Of a stretch of 64,000 nt of DNA, positions 8,499 to 35,000 are shown one piece after another. Under the pieces are notes generated by a model. The model saw only the letters and a program-made list of their open reading frames with translations. It was not told the DNA's origin and did not search any database. Position 1 is the first letter of the stretch. Each line of letters begins with the position of its first letter. The DNA comes from Fictibacillus sp. FJAT-27399 (GTDB lineage Bacteria > Bacillota > Bacilli > Bacillales > Fictibacillaceae). The position numbers were made by a program, and so were the translations under genes. Location: positions 322,574-386,573 of the forward strand of contig NZ_LMVC01000001.1 of NCBI RefSeq assembly GCF_001510655.1. The letters are read 5' to 3'.

Positions 8499-8502
8499 AT
8501 TT

Positions 8503-9978
8503 CTATCGAATCGCGATGTGTTCTTTTATCACTTTTAGCTTTCCTAATTCAGGATCTTCTGGACCCTGCACAGGCAGGCCTGCCTCAATGGTTTCCTTAA
8601 TATAGTCCAGGTTATCCTGTGTAATGATTTCACCAGGAATGAAAATTGGAATTCCTGGGGGATAAACCATGATAAATTCGGCAATGATTCTGCCTGCTGA
8701 TTCCTCAAAGGGAACACTCTCGGTATCTGCGTAAAAAGCGTCACGAGGAGATAATGCAAGCACAGGAATATCGGGAACGTGTACAGGCAAAGCTTGTGCA
8801 GCCCTCTCATCTGTATTCTCAAAGTGCTGGGACATTTCTTCAAGTGCGTTTACTAATACCATAATATTCTTCTCGTGATCAGCGGTCGTAATGAGACAAA
8901 GGATGTTATAAAGATCGGACAGTTCGACTTCTATATTATGTTTTTCGCGAAGCCAAACTTCAGCATCATATCCAGTTATGCCAAGTTCTTTAACAGAAAT
9001 AAGAAGTTTCGTCGGATCCAGGTCATAGGTCGCTTCTTTTCCCAATATTTCCTCGCCGACACAATAAAGGCGAGGTATTTTATTGATTTTTTCACGTGCC
9101 TCATTGGCCAGTTTGATGGTTTTTTCAATGATGCTGTATCCTTCAGTAGCCAAACGTTTTCTTGCTGTATCAAGAGAGGCGAGCAAAATATAAGACGTTG
9201 ACGTGGTCGTGAGCATACTCAGGATCGTTTGAACTCTTTTGGCTGAAACAAGACCTTCTTTTATGTTAAGGATAGAGCTCCCTGTAAGTGAACCGCCTAA
9301 TTTGTGAACTGAAGTCGCAGCCATATCTGCTCCCGCCTGCATTGCAGAAAGAGGCATCTTGTCATGAAAGTGAATAAGGACACCATGAGCTTCGTCGACA
9401 AGAACGGGTACACGGTAGCTATGTGCGATTTCAACAATTTCACTAAGATTGGCCGACACTCCATAATAGGTCGGATTAATGACAAGCACCCCTTTAGCAT
9501 CAGGATTCTGCTCCAATGCTTTCTTAACGCTTTGAGGGGTTATTCCATGAGAGATCCCTAGCTCCCTGTCAATTTCCGGATGAATGAAAACAGGTGTTGC
9601 ACCAGAAAAAACGATCGCTGTCATAATGGATTTATGGACGTTGCGCGGTACGATAATTTTATCTCCGGGAGATACGACCGACATGATCATCGTCATGATG
9701 GCACCGCTCGTTCCTTGAACAGAGAAGAAAGTATGGTCAGCTCCAAAAGCTTGAGCCGCTAAGTCCTGAGCCTGTTTTATCATGCCCTTCGGCTGGTGAA
9801 GATCATCAAGGGGAGCAATATTAATTAAATCTATGGACAGGGCATTCTCGCCGATAAAATCCCGGAATTCCGGGTCCATTCCGTAGCCTTTTTTATGTCC
9901 GGGAATATGAAATTGATACGGGTTTCGTTTAGCATGTTCTTTTAGACCAGTAAATAAAGGGGTTTCGTGTTGTGACAA
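8503..9978 (-). CDS. speA: Arginine decarboxylase (PLP, Orn/Lys/Arg decarboxylase class I)
   Basis: First step of agmatine/polyamine synthesis: arginine to agmatine. 491 aa, as in B. subtilis SpeA. The PLP lysine is in TSVHKLGGS, and the C-terminal domain has the family stretch VYPPGIPIFIPGE. I start at TTG 9978 (SQHETPLFTGLKEHA follows) because GAGGTG lies 6 nt upstream and homologues begin there; longer versions up to 10029 would place codons upstream of that ribosome site. It converges with SR1. Confidence 0.95.
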   Translation of the reverse strand: MSQHETPLFTGLKEHAKRNPYQFHIPGHKKGYGMDPEFRDFIGENALSIDLINIAPLDDLHQPKGMIKQAQDLAAQAFGADHTFFSVQGTSGAIMTMIMSVVSPGDKIIVPRNVHKSIMTAIVFSGATPVFIHPEIDRELGISHGITPQSVKKALEQNPDAKGVLVINPTYYGVSANLSEIVEIAHSYRVPVLVDEAHGVLIHFHDKMPLSAMQAGADMAATSVHKLGGSLTGSSILNIKEGLVSAKRVQTILSMLTTTSTSYILLASLDTARKRLATEGYSIIEKTIKLANEAREKINKIPRLYCVGEEILGKEATYDLDPTKLLISVKELGITGYDAEVWLREKHNIEVELSDLYNILCLITTADHEKNIMVLVNALEEMSQHFENTDERAAQALPVHVPDIPVLALSPRDAFYADTESVPFEESAGRIIAEFIMVYPPGIPIFIPGEIITQDNLDYIKETIEAGLPVQGPEDPELGKLKVIKEHIAIR

Positions 9979-14017: not shown

Positions 14018-15856
14018 TTGAATTTGAGACAAGATATAAAAAACATCGCGATTATCGCGCACGTTGACCACGGGAAAACAACGCTCGTGGACCAAATGCT
14101 TCACCAATCAGGAACTTTCCGTTCAAATGAACATGTCAATGAACGTGCAATGGACTCCAATGATTTGGAAAAAGAACGCGGAATCACAATCTTAGCAAAG
14201 AATACGGCGATCAATTATGAAGGGATCCGCATTAACATCATGGATACTCCTGGACATGCCGATTTTGGCGGAGAGGTAGAACGGATCATGAAAATGGTTG
14301 ATGGTGTTCTTCTAGTCGTTGACGCTTACGAAGGATGTATGCCGCAAACTCGATTCGTTTTGAAAAAAGCGCTTGAGCAAAAATTGACTCCAATCGTAGT
14401 CGTAAATAAAATTGACCGTGATTTTGCCCGTCCTGAAGAAGTAGTGGATGAAGTCATTGATTTGTTTATCGAGCTTGGTGCAAATGAAGACCAGCTTGAA
14501 TTCCCTGTCGTATTTGCTTCTGCAATCCAAGGTACATCGAGCACGGATCCGCATCAGCAAGATGAAAACATGAAAGCTTTATTCGACTCCATTATTGAAA
14601 ATATTCCATCACCGGTTGATAACAGTGATGAGGCGCTGCAATTCCAAGTTTCTCTTTTGGATTACAATGATTATCTTGGCCGTATCGGGATTGGCCGTGT
14701 TTTCAGAGGAACAATGCATGTAGGTCAGGCTGTGTCTCTTATGAAGCTTGACGGATCCGTAAAAAAATTCCGCGTAACTAAAATCTTCGGTTTCCTTGGA
14801 CTGAAGAGAGTGGAAATCCAGGAAGCAAAAGCTGGTGACCTCGTAGCTGTATCAGGAATGGAAGAAATCAATGTTGGTGAAACGGTCTGTCCTGAAGGCC
14901 AGGAAGAAGCTTTACCGGTTCTTAGAATTGATGAGCCTACATTGAAAATGACCTTCCTTGTGAACAACTCGCCTTTTGCAGGACGAGAAGGGAAATACCT
15001 TACTTCAAGAAAAATTGAAGAGCGACTTCGTTCACAGTTGGAGACTGATGTTTCCCTGCGTGTTGATAACACGGAATCACCGGATGCTTGGATTGTTTCT
15101 GGACGCGGAGAGCTTCACCTTTCCATTCTGATTGAAAACATGAGAAGAGAAGGCTACGAGCTTCAAGTATCAAAACCTGAAGTAATCGTTCGAATGGTTG
15201 ACGGAGTTCGTTCTGAACCTGTAGAGCGTGTTCAAATTGATGTACCAGAAGAGTATACTGGAGCCGTTATGGAATCTCTCGGAGCTCGAAAAGGCGAAAT
15301 GCTGAACATGATCAATGATGGTAGTGGTCAGGTTAGACTCGAATTCATGGTTCCTGCACGTGGTTTGATCGGGTATTCAACAGAATTCTTAACACAAACT
15401 CGAGGCTATGGAATATTGAATCATACATTTGACAGCTATCAGCCGATGCATCAAGGCCAGGTTGGAGGACGCCGCCAGGGAGTTCTTGTATCAATGGAAC
15501 ACGGCAAGGCGAGCCAATACGGTATTATCAATGTGGAAGACCGCGGAACGATCTTCGTAGAACCGGGTACTGAGGTTTATGAAGGAATGATCGTCGGTGA
15601 ACATACACGAGAAAATGATATTACGGTAAATATCGTAAAAGTGAAACAAATGACAAATATGCGATCTGCTAACAAAGACCAGACTGTAAGCATGAAAAAA
15701 CCAAAGGTTATGTCGTTAGAGGAATCACTTGAATATCTGAATGAAGATGAGTATTGTGAAGTTACACCTGAGAGCATCCGTCTTCGCAAAAAAATCCTTG
15801 ATAAAAATGAGCGTGAACGTGCAAGCAAGAAAAGTAAAATAGCCAAGCAAAACTAA
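14018..15856 (+). CDS. typA: Translational GTPase TypA/BipA
   Basis: Ribosome-binding GTPase related to EF-G, needed for ribosome assembly and growth at low temperature. G1 AHVDHGKT (14-21), G3 DTPGH and G4 NKID are present, and the C-terminal BipA domain follows. 612 aa, the family length. Start codon is TTG with AAGGAG 9 nt upstream and the product begins [17 protein letters not shown] as in homologues. Confidence 0.97.
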
Positions 15857-15879
15857 GATTTCGTCTGGTGGTGTGAGCG

Positions 15880-16215
15880 GTGGATGATAAAAAAGTAATG
15901 TCTGCGACGGGTGAGGATTCTTCACCCATCGCTCTTCTTTTAGGAATAAACGAACATCCTGTAGCAGGTTTCTTTCTATTGTATCTGGTCATTACAGTAT
16001 TAACGATTCTTGTCTATCAGCTGGGATTTGCTAAAAAGCTTCCACTTCTTAAATCTGCAGTTATCTATATTCTTTTGATATTGGGCTGTTTTCCGCTTAC
16101 CTTTTTCGGAATAGGCCTGCCGGTTGCAGAGGGTCTTTTGTGTGCTGCCGCAGTATTGATTATTTACAAGATCAGGCTGCACCAGAGCAAAAAAAATAAA
16201 GCCGAACACCTTTAA
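15880..16215 (+). CDS. ylaH: YlaH-like membrane protein
   Basis: 111 aa with three to four membrane segments (about 31-50, 59-79, 82-101). Sequence and place right after typA match YlaH. I use the GTG at 15880; an ATG six codons later is an alternative with its own ribosome site (GTGGATGA). Function unknown. The last two codons overlap nothing, and a good AAGGAG for the next gene follows. Confidence 0.8.
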   Translation: MDDKKVMSATGEDSSPIALLLGINEHPVAGFFLLYLVITVLTILVYQLGFAKKLPLLKSAVIYILLILGCFPLTFFGIGLPVAEGLLCAAAVLIIYKIRLHQSKKNKAEHL

Positions 16216-20388: not shown

Positions 20389-20424
20389 CTCAAACCGTTG
20401 GCAAAATGGTTTGGGTTTTTTTTA
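20389..20424 (+). terminator. Terminator of ylaN
   Basis: CAAACC / GGTTTG with an 11-nt loop, extended by an outer AC/GT pairing, then nine Ts. Confidence 0.75.
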
Positions 20425-20459
20425 TATACTCCATTGAATTTCAGGAGCAATTTACAAAG

Positions 20460-21744: not shown

Positions 21745-24700
21745 ATGTCACAACAGCAAATCAGAAAAATATTAGTTGCCAACCGTGGAGAGATTGCCAT
21801 CCGCATTTTTCGTGCATGTACAGAGCTGGGAATTCGTACGGTAGCGATTTACTCCAAGGAAGATTCAGGATCCTATCATCGATACAAAGCAGATGAAGCC
21901 TATTTGGTTGGAGAAGGAAAAAAACCGATTGATGCTTATTTGGACATTGAAGGTATTATCACCATTGCAAAAAGAAACGGGATAGATGCCATTCACCCTG
22001 GTTATGGATTCTTATCAGAAAATATCCATTTTGCAAAGCGCTGTGCAGAAGAAAAGATTACGTTTATCGGACCGAAACAAGAACACCTCATTATGTTCGG
22101 CGATAAAGTAAAAGCAAGGGAAGTAGCGGTCAGTGCCGGACTTCCAGTCATACCGGGGTCTGACGGGCCAGTAAACAGCATTGATGAAGTGAGGGAATTT
22201 GCAGGAGAACATGGCTATCCAATCATTATAAAGGCCTCTTTAGGCGGCGGAGGAAGAGGCATGCGGATCATACGAAGTGAAAATTCGCTTGCTGAGGGAT
22301 ATGAAAGAGCAAAATCCGAAGCCAAAGCTGCGTTTGGAGAAGATCAGGTTTACGTTGAAAAATTTGTTGAGAAGCCAAAGCACATTGAAGTTCAGATTCT
22401 TGCGGACTTAGAAGGCAACATTGTGCATTTGTTTGAAAGGGACTGTTCTGTTCAGCGAAGGCATCAAAAAGTAGTTGAAGTTGCACCTAGTGTTGCCCTA
22501 AGTAAGGAACTTCGGCAGGAAATATGTGATGCCGCCGTTCAGCTGATGACGCATATCCACTATTTAAATGCAGGAACGGTGGAGTTCTTGGTTACGGAGG
22601 ACGGCCGTTTTTATTTCATTGAAGTGAATCCCCGTGTGCAGGTGGAACATACCATTACCGAAATGGTAACAGGTGTGGATATCGTTCAGACGCAGATTCT
22701 GATCGCTCAGGGCAATATGCTTCATGGTGATGTAATTGGAATTCCGCAGCAAGAGGATATTGCATGCCACGGCTATGCAATTCAATGCCGGGTAACAACA
22801 GAAGATCCTGCGAACAATTTTATGCCGGATACTGGTAAGATCAATGTTTACCGTTCTGGAGGAGGCTTCGGGGTACGCTTGGATGCTGGAAACGGCTTTC
22901 AGGGAGCTGTTATTACGCCTCATTACGATTCATTGCTCGTTAAGCTGTCAACATGGGCTCTAACCTTTGATCAAGCAGCTGCTAAAATGCTCAGGAATCT
23001 TAAAGAGTTCCGGATCCGCGGTATAAAAACGAACATCGAATTTCTTGAAAATGTTGTAAAACATAAATCGTTTATATCAGGAAACTATAATACTTCTTTT
23101 ATTGACACATCAAGTGAGTTATTCTTGTTCCCTAAGAAGAAGGACCGGGGTACCAAGATGCTGACTTACATCGGTTCAACGACAGTTAATGGTTTTCCCG
23201 GCATTGAAAAAATGAAGAAACCGGCATTTACAAATCCGCGTCTTCCGAATTTACAGCTGATAGATCAGCCTGCAGATGGAACAAAACAAATCCTTGATCA
23301 GCATGGTGCCGATGGACTCGTTAACTGGATTAAAGAACAGAAAAAAGTTCTTCTGACAGATACGACCTTCAGGGATGGACATCAATCGCTCTTAGCCACT
23401 CGAGTAAGGACAAATGACCTGCTGCATGCGGCGGAACCGACAGCCAAACTATGGCCTTCCATGTTTTCTTTGGAGATGTGGGGAGGAGCTACCTTCGATG
23501 TGGCTTACCGATTCCTTAACGAGGACCCATGGGAGCGGCTCTTAAAGCTTCGAGAAAAAGTTCCAAACGTTCTGTTTCAGATGCTGCTGCGTGCTTCTAA
23601 TGCGGTTGGCTATAAAAACTATCCAGATAATGTCGTTGAGGAGTTTGTGGAAATATCATCCGCTGCAGGAATTGATGTGTTCCGAATCTTTGACAGCCTT
23701 AACTGGGTAGAGGGAATGACTGTCGCCATTGACTCAGTAAGGAAGAACGGAAAAATTGCCGAGGCTGCTCTATGTTATACAGGCGATATTCTTGATTCCT
23801 CGAGGACAAAGTACAATGCAGAGTACTACATAAAAATGGCAAAGGAATTAGAAGCTTCAGGTGCTCATATTCTCGCAATCAAGGATATGGCCGGATTGCT
23901 TAAACCGCAGGCTGCTTATGAACTTGTTTCACGTTTAAAAGAAAATGTAAGCCTGCCTATTCACCTGCATACTCATGATACGAGCGGTAACGGAATATTC
24001 ACCTACTCAAAGGCGATTGATGCCGGGGTAGACATAGTAGACGTGGCAGTCAGTTCTATGGCTGGGGGAACTTCGCAGCCTTCTGCCAACTCGTTGTACT
24101 ATGCCCTTGCAGGAAATGAACGGCAGCCGGATGCTGATATCAGCAATCTTCAAGAGCTAAGTTCCTATTGGGAAGATGTCCGCAAGTATTATCAAGGCTT
24201 CGAAAGCGGGATGAACGCTCCTGATCCAGAAGTCTATGAGCATGAGATGCCTGGCGGCCAGTTCAGCAATCTTAAACAACAGGCAAAAGCGGTTGGTCTT
24301 GAAGAAAAGTGGGACCATGTTAAGCGAATGTACCGCCGCGTGAACGATATGTTCGGTGATGTAGTAAAAGTAACTCCTTCTTCAAAAGTGGTAGGAGATA
24401 TGGCACTGTTCATGGTTCAGAATGATCTTACAGAAGACGATGTATACGAAAAAGGTGAAAAACTGGATTTCCCTGATTCTGTCGTTGAGTTTTTCCAGGG
24501 TTATATCGGCCAGCCATACCAAGGGTTCCCAAAAGAACTTCAGCAGCTGATCTTAAAGGGAAGAGAGCATATAACGAAGCGTCCTGGAGAATTGCTGGAG
24601 GCCGCTGACTTTATAGAGATTAAAGAAACGCTCTTCCATAAACTCAATCGTCAAGTAACCAGTTTTGATGCGATATCCTACGCTCTTTATCCAAAGGTAT

Positions 24701-25191
24701 TATTAGACCGCGAAAGAATGTTTCAGCAATTCGGGGATATTTCAGTCCTCGATACACCGACTTTCTTTTATGGCATGAGGCTTGGAGAGGAGATCGAGAT
24801 CGAAATTGAACAGGGGAAAACCCTTATTGTTAAACTTGTGTCCATCGGAGAACCGCAAATGGATGGAACAAGAGTCGTTTACTTTGAGTTGAATGGCCAG
24901 CCGAGGGAAGTTGTCGTTAAAGATGAAAGCATCAAATCGGCTGTCGCTGCCAAGAGAAAAGTAGATCCGTCCGATCCAGGCCAAATCGGTGCAAGTATGC
25001 CGGGCACAGTAGTGAAGGTTTTGGTAGAGAAGGGTGAAAAGGTTAAAAAAGGAGATCATCTGATGATCACAGAGGCGATGAAAATGGAAACAACCGTGCA
25101 GGCGCCATATGATGGAATCATTAAAGAAATCTACGCAGCCAACAGCGAGGCCATTTCACCAGGGGATTTATTGATCGAATTAGCAAAATAG
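21745..25191 (+). CDS. pycA: Pyruvate carboxylase
   Basis: Biotin- and ATP-dependent anaplerotic enzyme, pyruvate + HCO3- to oxaloacetate. 1148 aa in one chain: biotin carboxylase (about 1-455, with SLGGGGRGMR ATP loop), carboxyltransferase (about 530-800, starting TDTTFRDGHQSLLATR), PC/OADA tetramerisation region, and C-terminal biotinyl domain with biotin Lys1113 in EAMKMET. Full length and undisturbed. Follows ftsW by 30 nt with GAGGGAGAG as ribosome site. Its last 30 bases are repeated downstream (see repeat). Confidence 0.98.
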   Translation: MSQQQIRKILVANRGEIAIRIFRACTELGIRTVAIYSKEDSGSYHRYKADEAYLVGEGKKPIDAYLDIEGIITIAKRNGIDAIHPGYGFLSENIHFAKRCAEEKITFIGPKQEHLIMFGDKVKAREVAVSAGLPVIPGSDGPVNSIDEVREFAGEHGYPIIIKASLGGGGRGMRIIRSENSLAEGYERAKSEAKAAFGEDQVYVEKFVEKPKHIEVQILADLEGNIVHLFERDCSVQRRHQKVVEVAPSVALSKELRQEICDAAVQLMTHIHYLNAGTVEFLVTEDGRFYFIEVNPRVQVEHTITEMVTGVDIVQTQILIAQGNMLHGDVIGIPQQEDIACHGYAIQCRVTTEDPANNFMPDTGKINVYRSGGGFGVRLDAGNGFQGAVITPHYDSLLVKLSTWALTFDQAAAKMLRNLKEFRIRGIKTNIEFLENVVKHKSFISGNYNTSFIDTSSELFLFPKKKDRGTKMLTYIGSTTVNGFPGIEKMKKPAFTNPRLPNLQLIDQPADGTKQILDQHGADGLVNWIKEQKKVLLTDTTFRDGHQSLLATRVRTNDLLHAAEPTAKLWPSMFSLEMWGGATFDVAYRFLNEDPWERLLKLREKVPNVLFQMLLRASNAVGYKNYPDNVVEEFVEISSAAGIDVFRIFDSLNWVEGMTVAIDSVRKNGKIAEAALCYTGDILDSSRTKYNAEYYIKMAKELEASGAHILAIKDMAGLLKPQAAYELVSRLKENVSLPIHLHTHDTSGNGIFTYSKAIDAGVDIVDVAVSSMAGGTSQPSANSLYYALAGNERQPDADISNLQELSSYWEDVRKYYQGFESGMNAPDPEVYEHEMPGGQFSNLKQQAKAVGLEEKWDHVKRMYRRVNDMFGDVVKVTPSSKVVGDMALFMVQNDLTEDDVYEKGEKLDFPDSVVEFFQGYIGQPYQGFPKELQQLILKGREHITKRPGELLEAADFIEIKETLFHKLNRQVTSFDAISYALYPKVLLDRERMFQQFGDISVLDTPTFFYGMRLGEEIEIEIEQGKTLIVKLVSIGEPQMDGTRVVYFELNGQPREVVVKDESIKSAVAAKRKVDPSDPGQIGASMPGTVVKVLVEKGEKVKKGDHLMITEAMKMETTVQAPYDGIIKEIYAANSEAISPGDLLIELAK

Positions 25192-25346
25192 ATAGCACCA
25201 ATAAATCCATTGGGGATTTATTGATCGAATTAGCAAAATAGATAGCATCAATAAATCCATTGGGGATTTATTAATTGAACTAGCTAAATAAGAACGCATC
25301 AATAAATCCGTTGGGGATTAATTGATTGAACTGGCTAAATTGAAAG
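25162..25346 (+). repeat. Tandem array of the pycA 3' end (about 3.7 units of 50-51 bp)
   Basis: Unit 1 (25162-25211) holds the last nine codons and stop of pycA plus 20 nt. Units begin again at 25212, 25262 and 25313. Unit 2 differs from unit 1 by one base (in the spacer). Unit 3 differs at TTG/TTA, ATC/ATT, TTA/CTA, GCA/GCT and TAG/TAA, all silent, so it still reads GDLLIELAK-stop. Unit 4 has three silent changes plus an internal stop and a lost terminal stop. The period is not a multiple of 3 and every unit but the first is untranslated. Within units CAATAAATCC and GGATTTATTG are inverted copies. Confidence 0.95.
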
Positions 25347-25348
25347 AC

Positions 25349-25388
25349 AAAAAAGCATTTCACCTTTTGGGGGGAAATGCTTTTTTTT
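25349..25388 (+). terminator. Terminator of ftsW-pycA
   Basis: AAAAGCATTTC (25351-25361) / GAAATGCTTTT (25374-25384), then Ts, after the tandem copies. Confidence 0.88.
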
Positions 25389-25718
25389 AAAGTTAAATAA
25401 GATTGTTCAAAGAAAATTCACAAATTTGTTAAATTTCAGCCTTATACTAAAGTTTGCCAAAACATAGGAATATTATAGGAATATGTCTATCCGAGTCGAA
25501 GTATACAAACCTTCTAAATTGTTTTATAATGTTTTAGAAACATGTCTATCATATCACAACAATATGTGATAAATTTCGCAAATATGTGAAAAAAGGGATG
25601 CGTTTTACATATTGATTTCCGTTTCATTACTATTTAGAATAAAATATGGCATTTTACCTGGATAGTTTCACAAAAACCGGAAATGGAAGGAAACTTACCT
25701 GTAAAGGAGGTGTATACG
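25389..25718. promoter_or_regulatory. Control region of the cta operon
   Basis: 330 bp, AT-rich, no gene; ctaA (haem A synthase), divergent here in B. subtilis, is missing. Seen: ATTCACAAA (25416-25424), inverse of the ResD consensus as I recall it (TTTGTGAAT); a TATAAT (25525-25530) flanked by TTCTAAA/TTTAGAA arms; an inverted repeat TATCACA-N6-TGTGATA (25552-25571); AATATGTGA twice 20 bp apart (25561, 25581); and ATGTCTATC at 25483 and 25542. Density of repeats suggests redox or oxygen regulation. Confidence 0.5.
25552..25571. promoter_or_regulatory. Inverted repeat TATCACA-N6-TGTGATA upstream of ctaB
   Basis: Perfect 7-bp arms with 6-bp spacer. The orientation (TCACA...TGTGA) is opposite to the Fnr/Crp type (TGTGA...TCACA), and it is not the Rex box. 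Its right arm is one of two AATATGTGA direct repeats at 20-bp spacing. Binding protein unknown. Confidence 0.5.
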
Positions 25719-26654
25719 GTGAGCAAAACTCAAACAACATTTGATGATGCTGACAAAGTGATCAAGGCTGATTCTCTACCGGAAGCTAATCCGACAGGTA
25801 CATGGAAAGATTTCCTTGCAATTGCCAAGATGGGAATCGTTATTTCAAATCTCATCACAGTTTTTGCAGGTGTATTTCTTGCCATTAAGTTTAACAGTCT
25901 GCTCTTTATGGATGAGCTGAATGTTTTGGCTCTGGCCGTTGTCGGCTCAGCCTTTGTAATCGCGGGAGGCTGCTGCTTAAACAATTACATAGACCGCGAT
26001 ATTGACGGTTTGATGGATCGTACCATGGACAGACCGACAGTAACCGGTAAGATTGAAGCACACCAGGCATTATGGATGGGGATTATTTTATCTGCCACCG
26101 GCGTGATTCTTCTAGCCATGACAACGCTAACAGCCGCCGTTTTTGGATTGATTGGTTTATTTGTATATGTGGTTGTTTACACGATGTGGCTTAAAAGAAC
26201 CCATTCTATTAATACGGTTGTGGGCGGAATTTCCGGAGCGATGCCGCCGCTGATCGGCTGGGCCGCAGTGGATGCGAACCTGGATATAAAAGCATGGATA
26301 CTGTTCTTGATTCTGTTTTTATGGCAGCCGCCGCATTTTTTGGCGCTTGCGATGAAGAGATGTGAAGAATACAGAAATGCAGGAATACCAATGCTTCCTG
26401 TCGTATCGGGATTTAAAATGACGAAGCGCCAGATGATCTGGTATGTAGCCGCTCTCATCCCGGTCTCCTTATATTTGTATCCATTTGGCAAGGTATTTAC
26501 CATTTTAGCCGCTGTCCTGGGATTTGGCTGGCTGGCTCTTGGGTTATCCGGTATCCGGACAAGTGATGACATCAAGTGGGCAAGGCAGATGTTTGTCTAC
26601 TCTCTTAATTACTTGACTATATTGTTCGTCGCTATGATTCTCGTAAACATATAA
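25719..26654 (+). CDS. ctaB: Protohaem IX farnesyltransferase (haem O synthase)
   Basis: UbiA-family integral membrane prenyltransferase that adds farnesyl to haem B to give haem O for the oxidase. The Asp-rich motif [19 protein letters not shown] (diphosphate binding) and the later [13 protein letters not shown] are intact. About eight to nine membrane helices; 311 aa. I choose GTG 25719 because AAAGGAGGTG lies 6 nt upstream; an ATG at 25683 would precede that site. First gene of the oxidase cluster. Confidence 0.95.
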
Positions 26655-34671: not shown

Positions 34672-35000
34672 AGGGGCTGTCCAGAAAGTCGAAAATTGAC
34701 CTTCAGGCAGCCCCTTTTTGGCTTGAAAAATCTTCAATGAAAAGTTTAATTGAAGTGGAAGATGCGAGACTCCTCGAAAATGAACTTCACATTTTCTTCG
34801 TGCGATAAAAAGCTGCCGGAGCCTTCCTTGTCCTGCGGGACCAGCGTGACAGGTGAGACTCCCGCCGGTGCTTGCACCAAAAAGTAGGTGTTCACGCCGG
34901 TAAGGCTCACCGCATGCCCCGCGAAAGTAGGAGCTCGCGCCGGTAAAAGCGAGCAGCCTGGAACGGAAATCAACAGCTTACAGACTTCTTGGACAGCCCT
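34672..35000. mobile_element. MITE-like dispersed repeat of Bacillaceae
   Basis: 329 bp bounded by imperfect terminal inverted repeats: 34672-34690 (AGGGGCTGTCCAGAAAGTC) and 34983-35000 (inverse AGGGCTGTCCAAGAAGTC). GC content is higher than in the flanks. The inside holds GAAGTGGAAGATGCGAGACTCC, split here at 20 nt, and GGAACGGAAATCAAC near the right end, phrases I know from repeats scattered in many Bacillaceae genomes. GGTGAG/CTCACC (34852/34906) pair inside. The left end (GGGGCTG...CAGCCCC plus Ts, 34673-34719) can terminate ylbB. No transposase gene. No clear target duplication. Confidence 0.7.

Follow-up and report, generated by a model that had tools for sequence, protein, structure and literature searches.

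Tandem copies of a pyruvate carboxylase gene end in Fictibacillus as possible former 3' ends of the gene

The pyc locus and its tail array

The window considered here is a stretch of 64 kb (64,000 nucleotides) from the genome of Fictibacillus sp. FJAT-27399, to which all coordinates refer. It carries the pyc (pycA) gene for pyruvate carboxylase (21745..25191, + strand), an ORF of 1148 amino acids whose C-terminal residues GDLLIELAK are followed by TAG. Near full-length matches to this gene were obtained in 59 of the 60 genomes searched, including that of FJAT-27399 itself (G000), with a partial match only in G051; the named best matches of the gene belong to Fictibacillus. Past the stop codon, the last 30 bases of pyc, together with a spacer of 20–21 bases, recur at 25212, 25262 and, in decayed form, 25313. 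These recurrences, which an earlier note on this DNA had read from the sequence together with the gene end at 25162, were confirmed by repeat finding and by direct reading. Tandem Repeats Finder reports a 50-base unit in 3.4 copies between 25162 and 25330 (90% matches, score 259), and its two remaining rows for the 64 kb have scores of 42 and 41, so that the pyc-tail array is the sole strong tandem repeat of the window. A 23-base core of the unit, sought with up to three mismatches, is matched three times in the window (units 1–3), and not once in 100 shuffles.

All parts of the array lie on the + strand. The tail of unit 1 (25162..25191) is the coding end of pyc itself, and the 20-base spacer behind it (spacer 1, 25192..25211) contains CAATAAATCC, an inverted match to the tail. 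The tail of unit 2 (25212..25241), located beyond the pyc stop, has the same sequence as that of unit 1, and spacer 2 (25242..25261, also 20 bases) differs from spacer 1 by one base; unit 2 has the appearance of a simple duplicate of unit 1 that arose recently. Spacer 2 is the same as the spacer found in genome G060 (see below), and its inverted match to the tail extends over 12 bases. The tail of unit 3 (25262..25291) has five silent differences from unit 1 and a stop of its own, TAA, and is followed by a 21-base spacer (spacer 3, 25292..25312). The tail of unit 4 (25313..25342), the counterpart of the last unit of G060, has decayed, with an in-frame TAA at codon 3 and TTG where the stop would be; it has three codon changes in common, in kind, with unit 3 (ATT, CTR and GCT), as the earlier note had reported along with the loss of its reading. 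Decay within the window thus grows with distance from the gene, from an identical unit through a silently changed one to a broken one, again as first described. An intrinsic-terminator-like hairpin with a T run, recognised by eye and with its stem present in the RNA fold, lies 3' of the array (25349..25388, + strand), and is followed by an ORF (25683-26654) that we take, from the type of its sequence, to be ctaB.

Distribution among genomes and genes

The array is known from three genomes of two species, with unit tails of 30 bases, and the conclusions below are based on these three genomes: FJAT-27399 with four units, strain G060 with two, and F. terranigra (G005) with two. G060 is assigned to the same species as FJAT-27399 and differs from the window at 1471 of 59062 aligned sites (2.5%), and unit number therefore varies between strains of one species. 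The pyc gene of G060 has a one-base deletion relative to the window about 170 bases before its end; either the gene is broken or the sequence contains an error here. Elsewhere in the comparison, the regions at about 8603-9169 and 14198-15979 of the window are more diverged from G060 and are perhaps recombined patches: the 500-base segments at 8501, 14501, 15001 and 15501 show 87–91% identity, with mostly 96–99% in their surroundings. G060 also has some 310 extra bases at window positions 20422-20438, part of which is 79% identical to window 34726-34917; to judge from this resemblance, the two are likely to be copies of a small interspersed repeat. F. terranigra possesses a second, distant pyruvate carboxylase gene (G005:C12:181931-185353), with 63% identity to the pyc gene of the window.

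The rarity of such arrays was assessed with 1281 ORF ends in 1.38 Mb of DNA, for each of which a close copy of the last 30 bases was sought at most 250 bases downstream. Besides the window, the DNA comprised 60 pieces of 20 kb taken from G000 and roughly 60 kb from each of the genomes G060 and G005, the share of G000 (about 1.26 Mb) amounting to 28% of its 4.5 Mb genome. Only two of the 1281 ends had a downstream copy matching at 22 or more of the 30 bases, and both were pyc, that of the window (30/30) and that of G005 (25/30). Three further ends reached 20/30, and the top shuffle 19/30; the pyc gene of G060 is absent from the matches, apparently owing to its broken frame. Among pyc loci the picture is similar. 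Of 110 loci fetched, all but L009 could be tested, several genomes being represented twice, and in these 109 a tail copy above the shuffle maximum (19/30) was detected only in FJAT-27399 and F. terranigra (L002, L032). No tail copies were found behind pyc at the Fictibacillus loci L003-L005, of which L005 is from F. enclensis. A search for plasmid copies gave only six records, with distant pyc sequence, and we found no description of such a tail array in pyc in the open-licence literature. In other Fictibacillus-group genomes (loci L010, L015, L018, L020, L021 and L022), a G+C-rich repeated element (around GCTCGCTTTCC) is located directly behind pyc, in either orientation.

Silent divergence between units

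The differences between units are concentrated at silent sites. Units 1 and 3 of the window differ by five bases in five codons, all of them silent and including TAG/TAA, as the earlier note had stated, and the same pattern holds for the F. terranigra pair, whose two tails differ by five bases, again all silent. A third comparison sets unit 3 of the window against unit 2 of F. terranigra, the inner unit in each species, and gives four bases in three codons, with 4/4 silent. Random changes in the pyc tail would be silent in 20–32% of cases depending on transition bias, and the probability of an all-silent outcome is accordingly 0.001–0.003 for five changes and 0.004–0.009 for four. These values bear on chance as an explanation, namely that an ordinary short tandem duplication took place and that the few changes since then were silent by luck. 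The tails have merely 30 bases, and unit 2 of the window appears to be just such a plain duplicate; against this, mostly non-silent change is expected of an untranslated copy that was duplicated and then drifted (P 0.001–0.003 for the observed pattern), and three silent-only comparisons (of 5, 5 and 4 changes), although not fully independent, each have P <0.01. Luck of this kind seems improbable to us.

A past as coding ends of pyc is instead supported for the downstream units by the silent-only pattern in the second species, by the strain-variable unit number and by the rise of decay with distance in the window. Units 2 and 3 of the window and unit 2 of F. terranigra still read GDLLIELAK-stop, and unit 4 of the window and unit 2 of G060 no longer do. 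These last two, counterparts of each other, differ by two bases, both non-silent, and the stop is gone in both. This pair serves as a small internal control, its non-silent change suggesting that displaced units are unprotected and free to decay. The two units of G060 differ by six bases in five codons, four of which are silent and the fifth being the lost stop; the coding tails of the window and G060 differ at 3 of 30 bases, against 2.5% divergence overall.

Of the 473 fourfold sites of pyc, 259 (55%) differ between the window and F. terranigra, as do 471 of 1149 third positions; with 55% fourfold divergence, tails that had been untranslated since the species split would be expected to have changed heavily, non-silent changes included. 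The two tails of F. terranigra differ in 5 of 10 codons, a density as between species. On these grounds unit 3 of the window and unit 2 of F. terranigra were most likely displaced fairly recently, independently in each lineage, and would have been coding pyc ends until then. Differences in the spacers lie mostly off the third positions of the continued tail frame (by eye), and it seems that the tail was constrained as far as the stop, spacer excluded. The pattern seems to agree more with former gene ends and their 3' flank than with a repeat inside a longer protein. The inner units of both species have the states ATT, GCT and TAA in common; some units may descend from a common ancestor, lineages may have exchanged tails, or the agreement may be coincidental, the sites allowing few alternatives.

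Inverted repeats and RNA folding

An inverted pair in each unit had been reported in the earlier note. The pair is real and specific, but the exact form CAATAAATCC/GGATTTATTG occurs only in units 1 and 2 and at the 1/2 junction; nine base pairs remain in unit 3 and at the 2/3 junction, the 3/4 junction has an internal mismatch, and unit 4 lacks a spacer arm behind it. Read as its reverse complement, the spacer common to G060 and unit 2 has a 12-base match to the tail, and a match of at least 10 was obtained in 0 of 20000 spacer shuffles. Such an inverted match may be the trace of template switching when the unit first formed, or may derive from an ancestral 3' stem at the gene end. A scan of 24900-25800 against Rfam gave no family at gathering score; two hits below threshold, one to GibS (31.7 bits, gathering score 115) and one to Plastid-psbJ-4, were taken as chance.

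The arms raise the question whether the repeated unit could be an RNA or recoding element under selection, acting as a post-stop hairpin, through -1 frameshifting at A AAA UAG, or by readthrough. The junction hairpin of G060 (-16.7 kcal/mol, z -3.9) is stronger than shuffles, as is the fold of the whole array (z -6.7, a figure inflated by the multi-copy inverted repeats), and in F. terranigra a period of 51 bases leaves the second tail in frame past the stop. The junction hairpin is nevertheless not conserved across the array-bearing genomes: it is weaker in the window (z -1.5 to -2.4), and in F. terranigra it is not above shuffles (z -0.18, with 76 of 200 shuffles folding as well). Neither is the frame relation conserved, with a first-junction period of 50 bases in two strains versus 51 in F. 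terranigra, and G060 has no A before AAA. Together with the lack of an Rfam family across the scanned region, the lack of tail copies at the other Fictibacillus pyc loci tested, and the non-silent change of the last unit common to FJAT-27399 and G060, these observations make a selected RNA or recoding role quite unlikely.

Proposed history of the array

The explanation that we favour, at about even odds, is that the extra units are former pyc 3' ends, displaced by imported, diverged pyc tails. The units carry a tail, mostly a stop, and a 3' flank of 20–21 bases. A short tandem duplication, perhaps aided by the hairpin between tail and spacer, would first have produced two units. Tails of pyc belonging to different lineages within the species group would later have recombined in, possibly via DNA uptake, and an incoming tail pairing one unit out of register would have become the coding end, with the resident tail shifted one place down; units so displaced would decay afterwards. 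This account does not need any present function of the extra units.

Import from a relative, as the earlier note had envisaged, is less well supported than the past of the units as coding ends. ComEC-family proteins are encoded in all three array-bearing genomes and also in 10 of 14 control genomes, and natural transformation of B. subtilis has been studied with DNA up to about 23% diverged, with efficiency dropping as divergence rises, according to the account in PMC6382021; together, these data at most make import possible. A match of the inner units to the pyc allele of another lineage did not emerge among the 109 pyc ends: unit 3 is matched best by the end from Priestia koreensis (26/30), and unit 2 of F. 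terranigra has no match above 26/30. The tails of units 3 and 4 of the window and of unit 2 of both G060 and F. terranigra are coding in none of these 109 ends nor in G060, in a sample that includes seven genomes of the genus only, and ELAK-stop is encoded by just three of the 109 loci, those of FJAT-27399 and F. terranigra (two loci). Immediately 5' of the array, the window and G060 have 12 differences in 201 bases, a density that 4.3% of windows reach, and there are 19 clusters of differences in about 59 kb; this diverged patch is unexceptional and counts against import. In F. terranigra no marked divergence break was seen near the pyc end, and a decayed third unit sought there was unsupported (28–33% of shuffles score equally). 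Two further observations count against the displacement account: the inner-unit states common to both species, not an outcome expected if simple displacement took place independently in each, and the G060 pair, which is not silent-only in that it has one non-silent change, at the stop.

Part of the observed pattern could also be produced within the array. Slippage or unequal exchange within a lineage would shuffle the units, so that downstream copies periodically become coding again and are then cleared of non-silent changes, no foreign DNA being involved. The unequal copy number of the close strains FJAT-27399 and G060 would fit, as would the coding tail of G060, which combines states of unit 1 (ATC, TTA, TAG) with the GCT of units 3 and 4, and the presence of AAG in both F. 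terranigra tails, where AAA stands in each of the six tails of the window and G060, hints at intragenomic exchange. Such shuffling requires, however, that two tail classes stayed separate, both under coding selection, while more than half of the fourfold sites changed, and we regard it as rather unlikely as the whole explanation.

A mobile element could in principle have brought the variant tails. In this scheme, the units would be fossil attachment sites of an element that targeted the pyc 3' end, carried a silent-variant tail that displaced the resident one, and later disappeared, leaving only the spacer behind. Such an origin would account for the silent divergence that separates attP-like from resident tails, tail bases 1–11 are identical in 6 of the 8 units with most silent changes after base 11, and the junction is flanked by inverted arms. 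The nearest match to a tyrosine integrase (PF00589) upstream of pyc, however, lies 59 kb away in G000 and 50 kb away in both G060 and G005; three scans of viral contigs for exact tail or junction patterns gave no match, nor did blastn against a phage collection; and a 20–21 base spacer of like kind would have to be the only remnant of the element in all three genomes. An origin of this kind appears very improbable.

If the displacement account is true, short untranslated repeats behind ordinary genes become readable as former gene ends, and past allele replacement becomes visible where no other scar remains. As a caution, repeats outside coding sequence that diverge at silent sites only would not, then, have to be translated or under selection at present. 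It is tempting to go further and view the pyc 3' end in this clade as a recombination junction where, with no mobile element involved, tails from different lineages have piled up one behind the other in an ordered, readable record of past alleles, an extension that we put forward tentatively and with some doubt. The array probably has no effect on the cell, and looks less like a working device than like a small fossil record left by earlier recombination.

Comparison with known systems

The nearest parallel appears to be C-terminal displacement in rhs genes, in which, as described in PMC2935791, an incoming 3' end displaces the resident one downstream, giving rise to an array of silent former ends prone to decay. 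In pyc, too, the gene end would be displaced downstream, leaving silent former ends able to decay, and all five downstream units (three in the window, one in G060 and one in F. terranigra) begin with GGGGATT, a shared tail start as in rhs arrays. Unlike the rhs tips of that description, which encode unrelated C-termini, units 1–3 of the window and both units of F. terranigra encode GDLLIELAK; moreover, pyc is a metabolic gene, and its unit measures about 50 bases. As differing C-termini are a defining feature of rhs, we do not file the pyc array under rhs displacement. A second parallel is prophage e14 in the icd gene of E. coli, where the incoming DNA supplies the 3' end of the gene and the old end (163 bp) stays as a duplicate (PMC6379469). 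What the two cases would share is a housekeeping gene whose 3' end comes from incoming DNA and whose old end persists as a duplicate, but e14 sits between both ends following site-specific integration, whereas the pyc units are separated by 20–21 bases only.

Two mechanisms described elsewhere may be relevant to how the units arose. Homology-facilitated illegitimate recombination, in which diverged DNA is added at one anchored end, offers a possible route in a Bacillus relative (PMC6382021), although no foreign segment was delimited at pyc. Template switching between short inverted repeats (PMC8604942) may have left the 12-base inverted match of the spacer to the tail as its trace; the case presented in that source concerns yeast coding sequence, whereas here the birth event is recorded in none of the genomes compared.
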